Shown piece after piece: positions 35,658-43,767 of a stretch of DNA of 64,000 nt. The DNA is from Gloeobacter kilaueensis JS1 (GTDB lineage: Bacteria; Cyanobacteriota; Cyanobacteriia; Gloeobacterales; Gloeobacteraceae). Each line of letters starts with the position of its first letter. The stretch's first letter is position 1. A program made the position numbers and the translations under genes. Where the stretch lies: NCBI RefSeq assembly GCF_000484535.1, contig NC_022600.1:1302001-1366000 (forward strand). Reading direction: 5' to 3'. Under the pieces are notes generated by a model. That model was not told the origin of the DNA. It did not search any database and was given only the letters and a program-made list of their open reading frames with translations.

Positions 35658-36782
35658 TCAACTGAGCTGGCTTCTGAAGCGGGCGGAACTTACTGCCATC
35701 AAGATCACAGCGATCGAGCCCAGAACGAGGACGTTCAACCAGAGTTCCTCGAAGCCGACTCCCTTGAGCAACATGCCGCGCACGATCGCGATGTAGTGCC
35801 TTAAAGGGTTCGCAAGCGAGATGTACTGAAACAGTCTGGGCATCGTCTCGACTGGGGCAATCGCTCCAGACAGCTGAATCAGGGGCAGGTTGATAAAGAA
35901 CGAGGTGAGCACCACCTGGGTCTGGGAGCGGGTGAGGGTGGCGAGCATCAGGCCGATGCCCAGGCCGACGCAGATGTAGAGGCTCGTAAAGACCATAAAC
36001 AGGGCAAAGTTGCCCAAAAAAGGCAGGCCAAAGACGAGGCGCGCCAGCCCGAGGGCGAGGAGCGCCTCGCCGATGAGCAGGACAAATAGTGGTGCAAGCT
36101 TGGCAAGCAAGATCTCCCACGCTTCGGCTGGCGTCATCAATAGCTGTTCGAGGGTGCCCACGTCCTTCTCGCGCACGAGGGTGGCCGAGGAGACGAGCAC
36201 CGAGGTGAGCGTCAACGCCAGCCCCAGCACCCCCGGTACAAAGAACCAGCTACTTTTGAGGCCCGGATTGTAGAGGATCGTCACCTGCGCATCGACGGGG
36301 GAAGTCGCAGCGGAGACGAGTGTCTGGCCGTACTCGCGCACGATCTGATTGGCGTAGCCGAAGGCGATACCGGCGGTGTTGGCATCGGCGGCGTCGATGA
36401 ACATCTGGATCTGGGCGCTCTTGCCCCGCTCCAGGTCGCGCCGAAATTCCGGCGGAATGATCAAGGCGGCGGTGACTTTGCCGACGCGCAGAGCATCGAC
36501 AAGATCCCGGTTGCGGGCACTCACCGCCTCGACCTCGAAGATATTGTTGTTGGTGAAGGCGGCCACCAGCTCGCGGCTCTGCTCGGTGTTGGAATAGTCT
36601 GCGAGAGCTAGCTTCAGATGTTTGACATCGGGGCTGAGGGCAAAGCCAAAGACCAGCAACTGAATCGTGGGCGGAAACAGCAGCAGAAATAAGAGCTGCC
36701 GATTTTTGAGAATCTGGATGGTTTCCTTGCGAATCAGCGCCCAGAGGCGGCTGTCGAGCAAGTTTTCAAGAAATTTCACCAT
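35658..36782 (-). CDS. ABC-2 type exporter permease (YbhR-like)
   Basis: 374 residues. One N-terminal helix (LLFLLLFPPTIQLLVFGFAL) is followed by a large extracytoplasmic domain (about 50-175), then five helices including VREKDVGTLEQLLMTPAEAW, the conserved cytoplasmic motif of this ABC-2 type. Ends 6 bases before the shadow of rpe on the opposite strand (stop codons converge). Last gene of the minus-strand operon 41082 to 35658, with the paralogous permease 36789-37910. The pair, the dual ATPase and the adaptor match E. coli YbhGFSR. Confidence 0.9.
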   Translation of the reverse strand: MVKFLENLLDSRLWALIRKETIQILKNRQLLFLLLFPPTIQLLVFGFALSPDVKHLKLALADYSNTEQSRELVAAFTNNNIFEVEAVSARNRDLVDALRVGKVTAALIIPPEFRRDLERGKSAQIQMFIDAADANTAGIAFGYANQIVREYGQTLVSAATSPVDAQVTILYNPGLKSSWFFVPGVLGLALTLTSVLVSSATLVREKDVGTLEQLLMTPAEAWEILLAKLAPLFVLLIGEALLALGLARLVFGLPFLGNFALFMVFTSLYICVGLGIGLMLATLTRSQTQVVLTSFFINLPLIQLSGAIAPVETMPRLFQYISLANPLRHYIAIVRGMLLKGVGFEELWLNVLVLGSIAVILMAVSSARFRSQLS

Positions 36783-36788
36783 GATCGT

Positions 36789-37910
36789 CTACCCCGGCAG
36801 TTGCATACGTTTGATCGACCGGAAACTGACAGCAAAAAAGAAACATCCCAACAGCAACAGCGCCGGTGGCACAAACCAGACGCTCGCCCAGCCGGTGCCG
36901 CGCACGAAGGCGTCGCGGGTGATCTCGATGTAGTAGCGGGCCGGGACGATGTTGCAGATGAGCGAGAGCGGAAAGGGAATGTTGCTGAGGGGATAGATGA
37001 ACCCCGACAGCAACAGCGAAGTGAGAAAGCCGCTGGTCGCCACCGCCTGCACCGCCGCGCTCTGGGTCGCGGTGCGCGTGCCGATGAGCAGGCCGTAGGC
37101 GACGCTGGTGATGATAAACAAGAGCGTTCCAATCAGCAGCGGCGTCGGATCGCCCGCCAGGCGCAGACCAAAGAGCAGCACCCCAATAATGCCGACGGCC
37201 AGGGCTTCCCCCAACCCCACCAGGCAGTAGGCGAGCCCCTTGCCCAGCAAAAATTCGACCGCGCTCAGGCTGGAGGCGTAGACCTGGACGATCGTGCCCT
37301 GTTCTTTTTCGCGCACCATAGCGATGGCGGTGAGCAGGGGCGGATAGATGGCGAGGATGACGGCGAAGACCCCCGGCACGACGTAGAGCGATTCTTTGCG
37401 CCCCGGATTGAACCAGAGGCGGGCGCTCAGGGCGATGGGCTGCGCCTGCTCACTGGCCAGGCCGGTGGTTCTGGTAAAAAAGTTGGTCACCTGGCGGATG
37501 CTGTTGCGGATGATCCGGGCATTGTTGGCGTCGGTGCCATCGACCAGAAGCTGCACGGTGGCTATTTTGCCGCTTTTGAGGCGGCGGCTGAAATCGGGGG
37601 GGATGAGCAGCACGGCCTTTGCCTTGCTGGCGTCGAGCACCGCCTCGGGGTTGCCCTCGCCGTTCCAGTTGACCGGCTGCAACTGGTTGGTGGCAAAGAC
37701 CCGCTCGATGTAGGCGCGGCTGGTGGGTGTCTGGTCGAGGTCTTGAACGGCGACGCCGATGTCGGTCGCCTCCAGCCGGATCGCAAAACCAAAGATAATC
37801 AACGTCCCGAGCGGCAACAGCACCGCCAGGGCCACCGTCAACCGGTCGCGGCTGAACTGGCGCAATTCTTTGACGCACTGGGCGACGATACGTTCGATCA
37901 TGGCGATCAC
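36789..37910 (-). CDS. ABC-2 type exporter permease (YbhS-like)
   Basis: 373 residues, with the same topology as its neighbour: one N-terminal helix (VALAVLLPLGTLIIFGFAIR), an extracytoplasmic domain, then helices with VREKEQGTIVQVYASSLSAV. GTG start at 37908-37910 overlaps the ATPase stop by 4 bases; an ATG three codons later (37901) is also possible. Forms a heterodimer with the second permease in the YbhGFSR-like exporter; substrates of the E. coli system include cationic and antibiotic-like compounds. Confidence 0.9.
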   Translation of the reverse strand: MIAMIERIVAQCVKELRQFSRDRLTVALAVLLPLGTLIIFGFAIRLEATDIGVAVQDLDQTPTSRAYIERVFATNQLQPVNWNGEGNPEAVLDASKAKAVLLIPPDFSRRLKSGKIATVQLLVDGTDANNARIIRNSIRQVTNFFTRTTGLASEQAQPIALSARLWFNPGRKESLYVVPGVFAVILAIYPPLLTAIAMVREKEQGTIVQVYASSLSAVEFLLGKGLAYCLVGLGEALAVGIIGVLLFGLRLAGDPTPLLIGTLLFIITSVAYGLLIGTRTATQSAAVQAVATSGFLTSLLLSGFIYPLSNIPFPLSLICNIVPARYYIEITRDAFVRGTGWASVWFVPPALLLLGCFFFAVSFRSIKRMQLPG

Positions 37911-39823
37911 CTGTTGCGCTGGACCATACCGATAAAGGCGTCTTCGAGGGAGTAGGGGATGGGCCGGGTCTGGCCCAGAGCCTGCAACTGGTCGAGGTGG
38001 CGCTCGCCGTCGTCGAGGACGACGTGCAGCCGGTCGCCGAACAGCGACACCCGCCAGCTCTGGTCTTTGAACAGCGAGCGCAGGCTGCGGGTGGCCTGCC
38101 TGAGGTCGCGGGGCACCACCTCGAACAACTGCCCCGGCTGCTGGGATTTGATCTCGCCGGGGGTGCCCTGGGCAATTAGCCCGCCTGCCACCATAAAGCC
38201 CAGCCGGTGGCAGTGCTCGGCCTCCTCCAGGTAGTGGGTCGTCACCAGCACGGCGGTACCGGTGCGGGCAAACATCTCGATGAGCCGCCAGAACTGGCGG
38301 CGGGCGAGCGGATCGACTCCCGAGGTGGGTTCGTCGAGAAAGAGCACCTCAGGCTGGTGCATCACCGAAGCGCCGAAGGCGACCCGCTGCTTCCAGCCCC
38401 CCGGCAGCGCGCCGGTGGTGAGATTTTCCTGGCCTTTTAGGCCACAGATCTCGATGACCCAGTCGATGCGCTCGCGCCTGAGCCGCCGGGGTACACCGTA
38501 GACGCCGCCGTAAAATTCGAGATTTTGCTCGATGCTCAGATCGTCGTAGAGGGTAAATTTCTGGCTCATATAACCCAGGCGGCTGCGCAGCGCACTGGAG
38601 CGCAACTGGCCCGATTCGCCCGCCAGGGTGACGCTGCCGGTGCTGGCGGGCAATAGGCCGCACAGCATCTTGATCGTCGTCGTCTTACCGGCACCGTTGG
38701 CTCCCAAAAGGCCATAAATCTGGCCGGGAGCGACTTCGAGGCTCACGTCGTGGACGGCACGAAAGTCGCCAAAGGTCTTGCCCAGGTCATAAGCGCCGAT
38801 CGCCACCCCGGATTGTGCCCTTGCCCGCTGAGCGGGAGCGCTCGGAAAGGCGATAAAGGGCGGGTCAGAACCGGCGGCCCTGAGGCGGGTGACAAAGACA
38901 TTTTCGAGGGTCGGCTCGGTGCGCTCGATCTGCGGCTCCTGGTCTTTGAGGGCGTCTTTGACCGCCTGCTCGCCCCGATCAGCGTCCGCTACCAGCACGT
39001 CGAGACGGTCGCCAAAAGTCTGGACATCTTTGATCTGAGCGAGTCGCTGCAACTTGTGCTCGGCCTCGTCGAGTGTGCCGCGCTTGGGCTGCACCTCCAG
39101 GCGCACCAGCCCCAGATCGGCCCGCAGGCGGGCGGGCGTATCGGTTTTTTGAAAGCGGCCCTCGTGCATCAGCGCCACCCGGTTGCAGCGCTCCGCCTCG
39201 TCGAGGTAGGGCGTCGCCACGATCACCGTCGTCTGCTCCTGTTCGGCCAGAGCGGCGAGCACATCCCAAAATTCGCGCCGCGATACCGGATCGACGCCGG
39301 TAGTGGGTTCATCGAGCAGCAAAATCTCCGGCTGGGTGACCAGGGCCGCGCACAGCGCCAGCTTCTGCTTCATCCCCCCAGAAAGCTGACCGGCAAGGCG
39401 AGCTGAGAAGCGTTCGAGGTCCATCAGCTTGAGATAGCGCGCCCGGCGCTCCTCGAACTGCTCCTTGGGCACCTGCCGCAGCCCGGCGCTGTAGCTGAGG
39501 TTTTCGTCGATGCTCAGATCGAGGTAGAGCGAGAAGGGCTGGGTGAGGTAACCGGTTTTGAGTCGCGCCTCGCGGGGCGGGCGGCCCAGAACCGTCACCT
39601 CCCCCGCCGTCGCCTCCATCACCCCGGCGAGAATCTGAAAGGTAGTCGTCTTGCCCGCTCCGTCCGGGCCAATCAGGCCAAAGACCTCGCCCCGCTCGAC
39701 GCTGAAGTCGATGCCGTCCACTGCCGCCAGATCCTTGTAGCGCTTCACCAGCCCCCGCACGACGACCGCCGGTTCGGTGGCCGCCTGCTGGCGCGGCTTT
39801 TCGCTGGTCCGTATCAATGTCAT
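37907..39823 (-). CDS. Dual ABC ATPase of the YbhF type
   Basis: A 638-residue cytoplasmic ATPase with two nucleotide-binding domains in one chain, as in YbhF. Domain 1: Walker A GPDGAGKTTT, signature LSGGMKQKLALCAAL, Walker B ILLLDEPTTGVDP. Domain 2: GANGAGKTTT, LPGGWKQRVAFGASV (signature slightly altered from LSGG), VLFLDEPTSGVDP. A linker of about 50 residues with charged and Pro-rich sequence joins them. Drives the two permeases. Overlaps the adaptor gene by 4 bases. The LPGG signature in domain 2 may lower its ATPase contribution. Confidence 0.95.
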   Translation of the reverse strand: MTLIRTSEKPRQQAATEPAVVVRGLVKRYKDLAAVDGIDFSVERGEVFGLIGPDGAGKTTTFQILAGVMEATAGEVTVLGRPPREARLKTGYLTQPFSLYLDLSIDENLSYSAGLRQVPKEQFEERRARYLKLMDLERFSARLAGQLSGGMKQKLALCAALVTQPEILLLDEPTTGVDPVSRREFWDVLAALAEQEQTTVIVATPYLDEAERCNRVALMHEGRFQKTDTPARLRADLGLVRLEVQPKRGTLDEAEHKLQRLAQIKDVQTFGDRLDVLVADADRGEQAVKDALKDQEPQIERTEPTLENVFVTRLRAAGSDPPFIAFPSAPAQRARAQSGVAIGAYDLGKTFGDFRAVHDVSLEVAPGQIYGLLGANGAGKTTTIKMLCGLLPASTGSVTLAGESGQLRSSALRSRLGYMSQKFTLYDDLSIEQNLEFYGGVYGVPRRLRRERIDWVIEICGLKGQENLTTGALPGGWKQRVAFGASVMHQPEVLFLDEPTSGVDPLARRQFWRLIEMFARTGTAVLVTTHYLEEAEHCHRLGFMVAGGLIAQGTPGEIKSQQPGQLFEVVPRDLRQATRSLRSLFKDQSWRVSLFGDRLHVVLDDGERHLDQLQALGQTRPIPYSLEDAFIGMVQRNR

Positions 39824-41082
39824 TTTGACTCCTCCAGCAAAATCTCGCCGTCGGCGGGCATCCCCGGCTTGGCAAAGCCACCCGGCCTGTCGAGGAGAAT
39901 CTTGACGCCAAAGACCTGGCGAACCCGCTCGTCTTTGAAGTAGATGTTCTCAGGCGTAAACGACGCCTGGGGATCGATGACGCCGACGTGGGCAGCGAGG
40001 GGCTGATCGGGAGCCGAATCGAGGAAAACCCGCGCCTTCTGGCCGACGCGCACTTTGCCTATCTGGCCTTCTGGAACGTAGCCGCGCAGATAAATCTGGC
40101 TCAGGTCAATCAGGGAGAGCACCGTCTTGCCGGTGGTCACCACCGCTCCCGGTTCGACGCTGCGGGCGGTCACCACGCCGTCGATGGGACTGGTGATGTT
40201 GAGGTAGCCAATCTGGGCGAGCAGTTGCTGGCGGGTCGCCTCGGCGTCTTTGACCGCCGCCTGGGAAGCCTTGAGCTGGGAGCGGGCCTGGGCCAGTTGC
40301 CGCTGGGTGACATCGAGCTGGGCGTTGCGCAGCTCCGGGTTGAGGGCGGTGGTGCGCGTCTGGGTGAGGGTGCCCGAGGCGGCGGCCACCTGCTTGCGCG
40401 CCGCTAGAACGGCGGCCTGCCGAGCGGCCAGGGTGGCCTTCGCTGCCTCGAAGTTGGTCTGCTGCTGGTCGAACTGCTGGGTGGCGACTACGCCCTCGCG
40501 CGCAAGTTGCTCGTAGCGGTTGCGGTCGGCCTGGGCAAGTTTTAAGTTGGCCCGCGCCTCGCCCACCTGGGCTTGCGCCTGAGCGAGTTGGGCCTGGGCT
40601 GTCGCCACCTGGGCCTCGGCCTGATCGATCCGGCCCTGGGCGTCGCCGCGCGACTGCTGGAGGTTGAGTTCAGCCTGGCGCACCTGGCCTTCGAGGACGC
40701 GGATCTGCAGGGCCGACTGCTGCTGCTGCTGGCGGGCAGAGGCGATCCGGGCGTTCGCTCCCCGCAGCTGGGCCTGGATCTCGTCGTCGTAGAGCTGGAC
40801 GACGAGCTGGCCTCTGCGCACCGTGTCTCCCTCGCGCACGGTGATCCGGTCTACCCGGCCCGCCGTCTTGGCCCCGATATCGGTCTCATAGCCTTCCAGC
40901 CGGCCGCTCAGGCGCAGGCGGTCCGACGGCGGCTGACTGGCAGCGTACCACCAGATACTGGCCGCTCCCGCCGCCAGCACCAGCCCGGCACCGAGGGCGA
41001 CGAGCAAACGGCGCTCCGGTTTCTTCTCGGCGGTCCGCTCCCCTTCCTGCCCGGTGCTCGGTCTGGACGAAGTCTGGGTCAT
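39820..41082 (-). CDS. HlyD-type periplasmic adaptor (YbhG-like)
   Basis: 420 residues. An N-terminal anchor (LLVALGAGLVLAAGAASIWW) is followed by a biotinyl-lipoyl half (GAKTAGRVDRITVREGDTV), a long coiled-coil hairpin rich in Ala/Gln (about residues 110-280), then the second lipoyl half and beta-barrel (YLNITSPIDGVVTARSVEPG). It would link the inner-membrane ABC pump to an outer-membrane channel. First gene of the operon; its ATG lies 166 bases from the divergent double-TetR gene. Confidence 0.93.
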   Translation of the reverse strand: MTQTSSRPSTGQEGERTAEKKPERRLLVALGAGLVLAAGAASIWWYAASQPPSDRLRLSGRLEGYETDIGAKTAGRVDRITVREGDTVRRGQLVVQLYDDEIQAQLRGANARIASARQQQQQSALQIRVLEGQVRQAELNLQQSRGDAQGRIDQAEAQVATAQAQLAQAQAQVGEARANLKLAQADRNRYEQLAREGVVATQQFDQQQTNFEAAKATLAARQAAVLAARKQVAAASGTLTQTRTTALNPELRNAQLDVTQRQLAQARSQLKASQAAVKDAEATRQQLLAQIGYLNITSPIDGVVTARSVEPGAVVTTGKTVLSLIDLSQIYLRGYVPEGQIGKVRVGQKARVFLDSAPDQPLAAHVGVIDPQASFTPENIYFKDERVRQVFGVKILLDRPGGFAKPGMPADGEILLEESK

Positions 41083-41125
41083 GGTGGTGTTCTCCTGAAG
41101 CGATGGAGTGCTACACTGAAAGCAA

Positions 41126-41147
41126 TTTAACTACACCGTTTAGTAAA
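41126..41147. promoter_or_regulatory. Candidate operator between the exporter operon and the double TetR gene
   Basis: TTTAACTACACCGTTTAGTAAA contains ACTA and TAGT as an inverted pair separated by 7 bases and sits 44 bases upstream of the adaptor start, in the divergent gap. An imperfect palindrome of this kind is what a TetR regulator would bind. Weak evidence. Confidence 0.3.
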
Positions 41148-41248
41148 GCATACGTCATGACTGCCGTCCTGGACACTCCCCCGTCAAATATTTTCTTAAA
41201 ACCGTTTCTTCCGGCAGGTAGGATCGAACGAACCTCCCGTCTGGCTCC

Positions 41249-42520
41249 ATGTCTACCGAAGTGACCCCATCAGCAGTGCAGTCGCCTTCCCCGGTGCGCG
41301 GCCCCGCCAAGCGCGAGCAGATTTTGCGCGGAGCGCTGGCGGTTTTTGCCGAGCACGGCTACGCGGGGACGAGCATGGACCGGGTGGCCTCCGGCGCGCG
41401 CGTCTCAAAGCCGACGCTTTACAGCCACTTTCAAAGCAAAGAAAAGCTTTTTTTGTCGGTGTGCGGGTGGGTGAACACTCAGCATCTGCGCTGGTCGCCC
41501 CCGCCGTCGCCCGTGTGCTCAGCCGATCTGTCCGGCTGGCTGAAGCGGCAGCTAAGCCAGTGGCTCGCCGCTGCCAGGCGACCAGAAAATGTCTTTGTCC
41601 TGCGTTCAGCTCTGAGCGAATCGCTGCGCTTTCCAGAATTGGGGGAGCTGTATACCAGAGCCGTCCTCGATCCGTTGTACGACTGGCTGCTGGAAACCTT
41701 CGACGCCCAGCCTTCCCTTGCCACCAGCGACAGGACGGCGCTGGCCGATTATCTGTGCGCTGGTCTTTTGACCCTTACGGTCTTTACCGAGATCATGCAC
41801 GGTCTGGAGCGCCTGGCTATCCCCTGCGAGCAGTGGATAGCGAGCATGGTCGATCTGGTGCTGGGCCAACCGCAAACCGTGCCGTTGCTGCCGCCTGCCG
41901 AAAAACCAGCGGCCTTCGAGGTGCCGCCCCAGCCGGGACCGGAGGCGGCGGACCGGCGCGAACAGCTCCTGCAGGAGGCGATGGCTGTCTTTTTGGCCCA
42001 CGGCTACGCCGGGACGAGCATGGACATGGTTGCCCAGGCCACCGGCGTCTCGAAGCCGACGCTCTACACTTACTTTCAAGACAAGGAGGGGCTTTTTAGC
42101 GAGCTGATCGCCAGGGTGACGATTCGCCGCTCGATTCTGCCCCTGCAGCCGATGCTAGCCACCCTGCCGCCGCCTGTGCTGCTCAAGCGGCAGGCGACGG
42201 CGATCCTCGCCAAGGCGGACGACCAGGAGTACGTGGCGCTGTTGCGGCTGGTCTTGAGCGAGTCGGTGCGCTTCCCCGAACTCATCCGGCTCTACGTGGG
42301 CACGGTGGCGGAGCCGGGCCATCGCTACTTGAGCCGTTATCTGATGGCCTGTCGGTGGCACCGTTTTCCGCCGGAGATGGGGGCGCTGCTGCTCATCGGT
42401 CCGATTATCGGCCTGGTCTTGCTCCAGTCGCTGTTGCACAGCAAAGTGCTGTCGTCTGTTGAGCGCGAGCGCTTCGTCGATTGCGTCGTCGGTCTGCTGG
42501 TGGGTTCTGCCGACCCATAA
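41249..42520 (+). CDS. Double TetR-family regulator, two complete domains fused in tandem
   Basis: 423 residues made of two TetR units. Unit 1: KREQILRGALAVFAEHGYAG, then SMDRVASGARVSKPTLYSHF. Unit 2, after a Pro-rich linker near residue 215-230: RREQLLQEAMAVFLAHGYAG, then SMDMVAQATGVSKPTLYTYF. Both DNA-binding domains keep the helix-turn-helix pattern, and each is followed by a C-terminal helical ligand domain. The very similar sequences point to an internal duplication. Divergent from the YbhGFSR-like exporter; in E. coli the TetR regulator CecR controls ybhGFSR, so the same link is likely here. Confidence 0.9.
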   Translation: MSTEVTPSAVQSPSPVRGPAKREQILRGALAVFAEHGYAGTSMDRVASGARVSKPTLYSHFQSKEKLFLSVCGWVNTQHLRWSPPPSPVCSADLSGWLKRQLSQWLAAARRPENVFVLRSALSESLRFPELGELYTRAVLDPLYDWLLETFDAQPSLATSDRTALADYLCAGLLTLTVFTEIMHGLERLAIPCEQWIASMVDLVLGQPQTVPLLPPAEKPAAFEVPPQPGPEAADRREQLLQEAMAVFLAHGYAGTSMDMVAQATGVSKPTLYTYFQDKEGLFSELIARVTIRRSILPLQPMLATLPPPVLLKRQATAILAKADDQEYVALLRLVLSESVRFPELIRLYVGTVAEPGHRYLSRYLMACRWHRFPPEMGALLLIGPIIGLVLLQSLLHSKVLSSVERERFVDCVVGLLVGSADP

Positions 42521-42654
42521 AAGCACCACTGCCACACCGCTTTCATAGAGCTGACAAACGGCGATGACACCATAAAAGACGTACACCGGTGGCAGGTCGG
42601 GGGAAGAGCCATTCCGGTGAGACAGCCTCTTCTACCCGTTTGGAGACGTTCGGT

Positions 42655-43767
42655 ATGGTAGCCCTTACCGCCGTGGGATCGTGCGAGCCGTTGCCCGCAC
42701 TGCTCAAAGAACACGGTCGCAATACGACCAGTTATCTGATGCTCGAACCGGACAAGCAAATTTTCTGGAGCGCTGCGGGCGATGCCGCTATCGCCTACCT
42801 GCGCGCCGGTTCGGTCGCCGTCGTGCAGGGGGAGCCGCTGTGCGCGGACGAGCAGTTGGAGTCAGTCATCGCTGAATTTGAGGCGTTCTGTCGGCGGACG
42901 CGCCTGCGGCCACTTTTTTTTGAGGTGTCGGAGTGGACGCTACCGGCCTTTGCAAGCCGGGGGTACCGGTTTTTGAAGACGGGCGAGGAGCCTTTTATCG
43001 AACTGGATACATTCACCCTGGCGGGCAACAGGATGGCCAACGTCCGCTCCTCCGCCAGCACCGCCCGCCGGCGGGGGGTGAGTGTGCGTCTGCACGACCC
43101 GCTCGCCCCTGGGAGTGCATGGACCAACGCCCGGCTGCAGGAAATTTCTGACGAGTGGCTGGCTGAGCGGGGCGCTCTGCGGGAGCTATCTTTTACCCTC
43201 GGCACCCTTTCGCTTGCCAATCCTGGCGAGCGGCGCTACTTCGTAGCCGAGCAGGAGGGCCGGGCGATCGCCTTTTTGACCTTTGCGCCGATTTACTCCC
43301 GCTCGGGGATGTACCTCGATCTGATGCGCCGCGCCGCCGACTGCCCACCCGGCACGATGGACCTGCTGTTGAGCGAAGCGTTCGTGCAACTGGCCGCCCT
43401 GGGCTACGAGCGCGCAACGATGGGCATGGCTCCCCTCGCCAATATCGAGCAGGCGGCCTGGGCTCAAGATGCCCGTCTGGTAAAGCTCTTGTGCTACGCC
43501 CGCGAGCACGGCGCTGCGCTCTACAACTTCGAGGCGCTGCGCCGCTTCAAGCAAAAATTCTGCCCCCAGCGCTGGGAGAGCAAGTACCTCGCCTATCGCC
43601 GCCTGGGCTGGGCCGAGCTAAACGCGCTGTGCTGGGCGCTGGAGGGCGCGGGGCTACCGGCGCTACTGCAGCAGGCGGCAGCTGGCCACGACTGGTGGCG
43701 GCGCGGCGGCCAATGGGCGGCGTCGATCGCTGCTGCGGCCCTCGGGCTTCTGGGCATCAGCGGTTAG
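42655..43767 (+). CDS. DUF2156/MprF C-terminal-type acyltransferase-like protein
   Basis: 370 residues from ATG 42655, with GGAG 9 bases upstream (an earlier GTG 42589 adds 22 unlikely residues). Two GNAT-like halves. Recognisable pieces are LLKEHGRNTTSYLMLEPDKQ, VVQGEPLCADEQLESVIAEF, RRGVSVRLHD and RRFKQKFCPQRWESKYL near the end. This is the catalytic fold of phosphatidylglycerol lysyltransferases, which transfer an aminoacyl group to lipid; no MprF membrane part is present, only one C-terminal hydrophobic stretch. The substrate is unknown. Followed by two hydrolase genes. Confidence 0.85.
   Translation: MVALTAVGSCEPLPALLKEHGRNTTSYLMLEPDKQIFWSAAGDAAIAYLRAGSVAVVQGEPLCADEQLESVIAEFEAFCRRTRLRPLFFEVSEWTLPAFASRGYRFLKTGEEPFIELDTFTLAGNRMANVRSSASTARRRGVSVRLHDPLAPGSAWTNARLQEISDEWLAERGALRELSFTLGTLSLANPGERRYFVAEQEGRAIAFLTFAPIYSRSGMYLDLMRRAADCPPGTMDLLLSEAFVQLAALGYERATMGMAPLANIEQAAWAQDARLVKLLCYAREHGAALYNFEALRRFKQKFCPQRWESKYLAYRRLGWAELNALCWALEGAGLPALLQQAAAGHDWWRRGGQWAASIAAAALGLLGISG

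Follow-up and report, generated by a model that had tools for sequence, protein, structure and literature searches.

Single proteins of the TetR family work as homodimers, and a chain that carries two such units raises the question of how it pairs and what kind of DNA site it recognizes. This question is posed by a locus of Gloeobacter kilaueensis JS1, analyzed here within a window of 64,000 nt (NC_022600.1, positions 1,302,001 to 1,366,000) to which the coordinates below refer. A double TetR regulator of 423 residues (41249..42520, plus strand) is encoded there, divergently from a minus-strand gene set for an exporter of the YbhGFSR type. The same double protein is found in all four genomes of the genus that were examined (G000, G388, G389, G390). 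It is probably a natural single-chain pseudo-dimer repressor that arose by tandem duplication and acts as one chain on an ancestral operator beside the exporter.

The regulator chain contains two complete TetR units, like double-TetR proteins of the Mce3R kind. The TetR_N profile (PF00440) matches it in two stretches with 119.7 bits in total against a cut-off of 24, the best-scoring stretch being residues 25-70, placing it in the TetR family. In a genome scan each stretch alone exceeds the cut-off (67.4 and 61 bits), the matches lying at 41321-41461 and 41966-42106, or residues 25-71 and 240-286. The initial annotation of this DNA had proposed two full TetR units, the second with its helix-turn-helix (HTH) at about residue 240, and these matches bear it out together with the alignment of unit 1 to unit 2, which contains 78 identities in 191 columns. 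When the C-terminal halves are aligned alone they score 103, against a mean of 28 for 500 shuffles (standard deviation 5, maximum 52); the whole unit was therefore duplicated and not the HTH alone. Along the chain, the DNA-binding domain of unit 1 (residues 18-72; 41300..41464) is followed by its C-terminal domain, the putative dimer and ligand domain as outlined by the helices of the predicted model (residues 73-208; 41465..41872), by an inter-unit linker of about 25 residues (206-230; 41864..41938), by the DNA-binding domain of unit 2 (residues 231-287; 41939..42109) and by the C-terminal domain of unit 2 (residues 288-420; 42110..42508), all on the plus strand. The AefR-like family PF14246 matches unit 2 only, in one stretch at residues 312-367 with 42.6 bits against a gathering cut-off of 22.

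The other three double proteins are 53-54% identical to that of the window across nearly their whole length. A fusion created by sequencing error, which had been named as a possible source of the double unit, is ruled out, as the same fusion with an open frame recurs in all four genomes. Single TetR genes occupy the corresponding place in two sister genera: in one (G392) the gene is divergent from ybhG with the whole exporter present, and in the other (G391) it is likewise divergent from ybhG, with ybhG and part of ybhF preceding the contig end. No double was seen among the listed matches of three further members of the order (G386, G387, G393). In a tree of both units, 34 cyanobacterial single TetRs and one alphaproteobacterial single TetR, all copies of unit 1 form one clade and all copies of unit 2 another, and the two clades are sisters (support 96/91). 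Together they join a multifurcation shared with the ybhG-linked singles L068, L009 and L013 and 26 other singles. The trees were also inferred with either unit removed in turn and L041 omitted. Unit 1 alone then attaches beside L068, the single TetR of the sister genus G391, and unit 2 alone attaches on the branch that separates eight ybhG-linked singles from the other 26. The simplest reading of these sequence trees, though not a proven one, is that the duplication took place within the lineage.

The predicted operator TTAACTACACCGTTTAGTAAA (41127..41147) lies between the regulator and ybhG and contains a 15-bp core, ACTANACNGTNTAGT, at 41130-41144. The core occurs at one place in the 4,724,791-base genome when at most one mismatch is allowed, compared with five places for the backwards control pattern. 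It adjoins ybhG, with one site each, in all four genomes with a double TetR; one of them (G390) has one further site with one mismatch elsewhere in the genome. In the aligned spacers 20 of the 21 operator bases are invariant, the variable one being the central base, as against 41 of 145 other spacer bases. The same core, again at no more than one mismatch, was found in 32 of 35 single-TetR loci searched from 600 bases upstream to 60 bases inside the gene (all except L031, L034 and L035) and the control in none of the 35, although these counts are not independent since several loci are near-copies. The ACTA/TAGT site that had been singled out earlier thus holds as a candidate operator, being unique in the genome, conserved among the doubles and common to the single-TetR loci. 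The idea that a double protein might need a longer operator did not survive the comparison and is rejected, because the same 15-bp core accompanies single-TetR relatives that neighbor this adaptor gene. For the same reason the predicted operator predates the duplication and was not lengthened by it: as far as motif conservation can tell, the double protein has kept the ancestral, dimer-sized predicted operator. Similar cores with one or two mismatches are also present near TetR relatives of Alphaproteobacteria, Ensifer and Variovorax (L041-L045), the two-mismatch level being without a control, and this type of operator may be older than the cyanobacteria or may have been transferred.

The number of sites differs among the single-TetR loci. 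Nine of the ten ybhG-linked singles have one core site and one has two, at the same mismatch level; the locus of L068 has a further operator site with two mismatches. Among the singles not linked to ybhG, 18 of 25 loci have two core sites 26-33 bp apart (L010-L012, L014-L018, L020, L023, L025, L028, L030, L032, L036, L039, L040 and L070, none with a close ybhG neighbor), a spacing that points to two dimers sitting next to each other on the DNA. Such paired sites would suit a different assembly of the double protein, in which like units pair between two chains (unit 1 with unit 1, unit 2 with unit 2) to give four HTHs in two symmetric heads, one bound to the operator and the other to a second site or to none. 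Each unit has single TetRs, which in this family work as homodimers, as its relatives, and between the two units the C-terminal domains have diverged to 35 identities in 102 aligned positions. This assembly is nonetheless unlikely. The window genome offers one site at the mismatch level used and each of the other doubles has one by ybhG. In addition, Mce3R is the best whole-chain structural match, and its structural report (PMC11667970) describes a chain folded in cis and no operator binding by the first unit in isolation.

Both HTHs appear to be under constraint. Their mean identities to the singles are 62-66% for the first and 60-65% for the second, compared with 76% among the singles themselves, and 67-71% when the units are compared with L068. 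The ratio of nonsynonymous to synonymous substitution rates (dN/dS) is 0.07-0.16 for the first HTH, 0.06-0.13 for the second and 0.11-0.47 for the C-terminal domains, all from the same four of the six possible pairs of doubles, the other two pairs being one very close and one with dS above 1.6. All four doubles have the motif SKPTLY unchanged in the recognition-helix region of each unit. It had been envisaged that the second unit might turn out not to bind DNA, a suspicion that its HTH, as constrained as the first, does not bear out. The C-terminal domains have mean identities of 21-31% to the singles (21-25% for unit 1) and of 29-40% to L068, compared with 50% among the singles. Since these domains have diverged far more than the HTHs, the protein may now respond to a different ligand or ligands. 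Loss of one function is common among duplicates, and the stem branch of unit 1 in the tree is longer than that of unit 2 (1.12 versus 0.55), as might be seen if one HTH alone bound DNA and the other unit were retained for dimerization or ligand sensing. That division of labor is highly improbable given that the two HTHs resemble the singles to about the same degree, that both are constrained and that the operator has retained both half-sites.

How the two units are arranged in space can be approached from the predicted fold. The AlphaFold2 model, built from 23 sequences, has a predicted template modeling score (pTM) of 0.85 and a mean predicted local distance difference test score (pLDDT) of 85.3, and it is free of helices between residues 205 and 231, the region of lower pLDDT that marks the linker. 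In VIA-align 2 the first match is Mce3R of Mycobacterium tuberculosis (PDB 9b7y), covering residues 14-421 with Z 20.4, 357 aligned residues and a root-mean-square deviation (rmsd) of 7.4 Å; the next match has Z 15.8, and those other than Mce3R span one unit, mostly unit 2. Foldseek also places Mce3R first, over nearly the whole chain, with template modeling (TM) scores of 0.49/0.53 and an rmsd of 10.3. A second model made from the four doubles only (pTM 0.75) has the same linker and again Mce3R as first match (Z 19.5, rmsd 7.6). The predicted arrangement of the units is accordingly best described as similar to that of Mce3R rather than the same. With this whole-chain match and the precedent of Mce3R, the intramolecular pseudo-dimer that the initial annotation had suggested gains ground as the likely form of the protein. 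The precedent also points one step further. According to PMC11667970, the Mce3R of the cryo-electron microscopy structure is a C2 homodimer on two DNA duplexes, and the fold match to it spans nearly the whole chain; the Gloeobacter pseudo-dimer might likewise dimerize and so bridge its operator to a second DNA site. No second site is found in the window genome at one mismatch or fewer, and such an assembly looks distinctly unlikely for this protein.

The single-chain pseudo-dimer repressor would then have come about and would act as follows. A single-TetR repressor of a divergent YbhGFSR-type exporter would have been tandemly duplicated in the ancestor of the genus, the two copies becoming one chain, connected by a flexible segment about 25 residues long. 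Most likely this chain folds on itself, with the dimerization helices of the two units packed against each other in the manner of a conventional two-chain TetR dimer, so that the two HTHs could occupy the two halves of the single 15-bp operator between the regulator and ybhG. By analogy with what is generally known of the TetR family, the bound chain would repress the exporter and, probably, its own gene, and it would come off the DNA once a ligand occupied one or both of its C-terminal pockets. Several observations weigh against this proposal. A scan of 40980-41350 found neither a sigma-70-like promoter nor a terminator, so the way in which the operator would block transcription is assumed. 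The sister grouping of the two units comes with a long-branch warning, and their separate attachment points are close but not identical. In the doubles-only prediction three of the five models have a mean pLDDT of about 62, the match to Mce3R falls short of a close rigid superposition (rmsd 7.4 Å, TM about 0.5), and the pTM value would be compatible with a domain-swapped dimer as well.

Whether the two unlike units read the operator in a fixed orientation is a further question, the initial annotation having offered an asymmetric operator as an alternative to a longer one. Of the seven core positions, six are matched between the half-sites of the double-TetR operators and one is not. In the wider arms they differ at three of 11, alike in the three aligned sequences and with an identical reading of the G388 sequence. 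The half-sites of single-TetR operators also differ, at zero to three of seven positions that vary, so imperfection of the operator is not special to the doubles. What favors asymmetry is that the mismatch is constant in the doubles, and this constancy in four related genomes is weak evidence for a fixed orientation; the mismatches among the singles count on the other side. ACTACAC and ACTAAAC are the half-sites in all four double species, and the position at which they differ varies among the single-TetR relatives. The duplication might have made a symmetric repressor into a polarized one, whose units 1 and 2 read fixed, different half-sites, ACTACAC and ACTAAAC, in one orientation on a divergent promoter, with two different ligand pockets acting separately on the two promoters, a tentative proposal that is rather unlikely.

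Beyond the genus, doubles of this kind were looked for in several collections. The phylum scan covered 386 genomes, with up to four candidates scored per genome in most cases and the matches listed in part. Ten long cyanobacterial frames were scanned (nine of at least 387 residues and one of 347; a 557-residue frame with an inner stop, G388:C7, was left out), and none of the ten gave a significant second HTH with a profile made from members of this family, which a more distant HTH could escape; two weak second stretches had E values of 1.4 and 23. In a scan of GTDB contigs 17 loci encode a relative, of which only L038, from the species of G388, is double over most of the query. A plasmid scan matched 647 records. 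The spans are about 0.5-0.7 kb among the 15 listed, and query coverage reaches at least 80% in five records, the best two of which were examined and are both single TetRs; since either half of the query can match the same single unit, high coverage can arise without a double. The literature that was searched held no report of this double protein, which is not proof of absence.

The regulator is divergent from ybhGFSR in all three genomes in which one contig spans both (the window, G389 and G390). In G388 the regulator and ybhG lie on separate contigs, and the ybhG contig has the same operator near its end. In that genome an element resembling an insertion sequence seems to separate the operator from the start of the regulator (L080 3446-3570 and the final bases of L065; contigs C28 and C72), and a by-eye comparison of the contig ends revealed matching inverted ends of about 13 bp beside a repeated stretch of about 11 bp. 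Such an element may part the regulator from its own promoter.

The exporter genes themselves are encoded on the minus strand. They comprise a ybhG-like periplasmic adaptor of the HlyD/membrane fusion protein type (39820..41082; Pfam HlyD_D23 and HlyD_3; 31% over 114 residues against E. coli YbhG), a ybhF-like ATPase with two ATP-binding cassette (ABC) domains (37907..39823; two ABC_tran stretches; 42.5% over 555 alignment positions against YbhF), and two ABC-2 permeases supported by Pfam matches, one ybhS-like (36789..37910; 28% over 346 positions against YbhS) and one ybhR-like (35658..36782; 30% over 365 positions against YbhR). This is the YbhGFSR architecture in the order G-F-S-R. The adaptor scores 129.2 bits against the YbhG equivalog cut-off of 393 (NCBIfam NF002939) and is, by this model, a relative and not an equivalog. 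For E. coli YbhFSR, export of drugs or cations is reported (PMC7190983). The initial annotation had likened the whole gene order to cecR-ybhGFSR; this is correct for the exporter, whereas E. coli cecR runs in the same direction as ybhGFSR and encodes a single TetR, and the regulator of the window is divergent. The regulator is not an orthologue of CecR, as the CecR model NF008587 gives it 31.1 bits against a cut-off of 365 and BLASTP aligns it to CecR in the HTH region only (33% over 61 residues). Given the orientation of cecR and the low score, the resemblance to E. coli is one of the exporter and not of the regulator. The gene downstream of the regulator (42589-43767) had no match at an E value of 1e-5 in six compared loci; with none around the double regulator in G389 or G390, it probably lies outside the system.

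Among known systems, Mce3R (Rv1963c) is the closest. As described in PMC11667970, it has one intrachain four-helix bundle and two unlike HTHs on one operator, and its gene precedes an operon associated with lipid transport; double-TetR repressors are called infrequent there, with 204 predicted in Actinomycetes as cited. Both proteins have two TetR units in a chain of about 400 residues, and Mce3R is the best whole-chain match to the predicted fold; by sequence their best common stretch is one HTH region (residues 233-288 of the window protein). According to the same paper, the units of Mce3R come from distinct TetR subgroups and its operator is a non-palindromic site of 25 bp, whereas the units of the window protein are sister copies and its predicted operator is a conserved near-palindrome common to single-TetR relatives. 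The single TetRs divergent from ybhG in cyanobacteria (such as L068, L069, L009 and L013) share the adaptor gene and the operator core; they have one unit, and their C-terminal domains are far less like those of the double than are their HTHs. Engineered single-chain Tet transregulators, in which a peptide linker connects two TetR units head to tail and the chain folds intramolecularly (PMC1797012), offer another parallel but are man-made from two TetR moieties and not the product of a natural duplication. Double-TetR proteins are hence already known; what is new here is the combination of sister units with a retained near-palindrome.

For the family, the survey yields a specific predicted operator for the exporters next to these cyanobacterial regulators. 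More generally, the transition from a homodimeric to a single-chain regulator is rarely visible, and Mce3R, its two units being from distinct subgroups (PMC11667970), comes without a comparison of this kind. In Gloeobacter and its sister genera, single and double forms at the same place, with the same adaptor gene and the same operator core, constitute a before-and-after pair, which allows testing what fusion changed in affinity, concentration dependence, asymmetry and ligand range.

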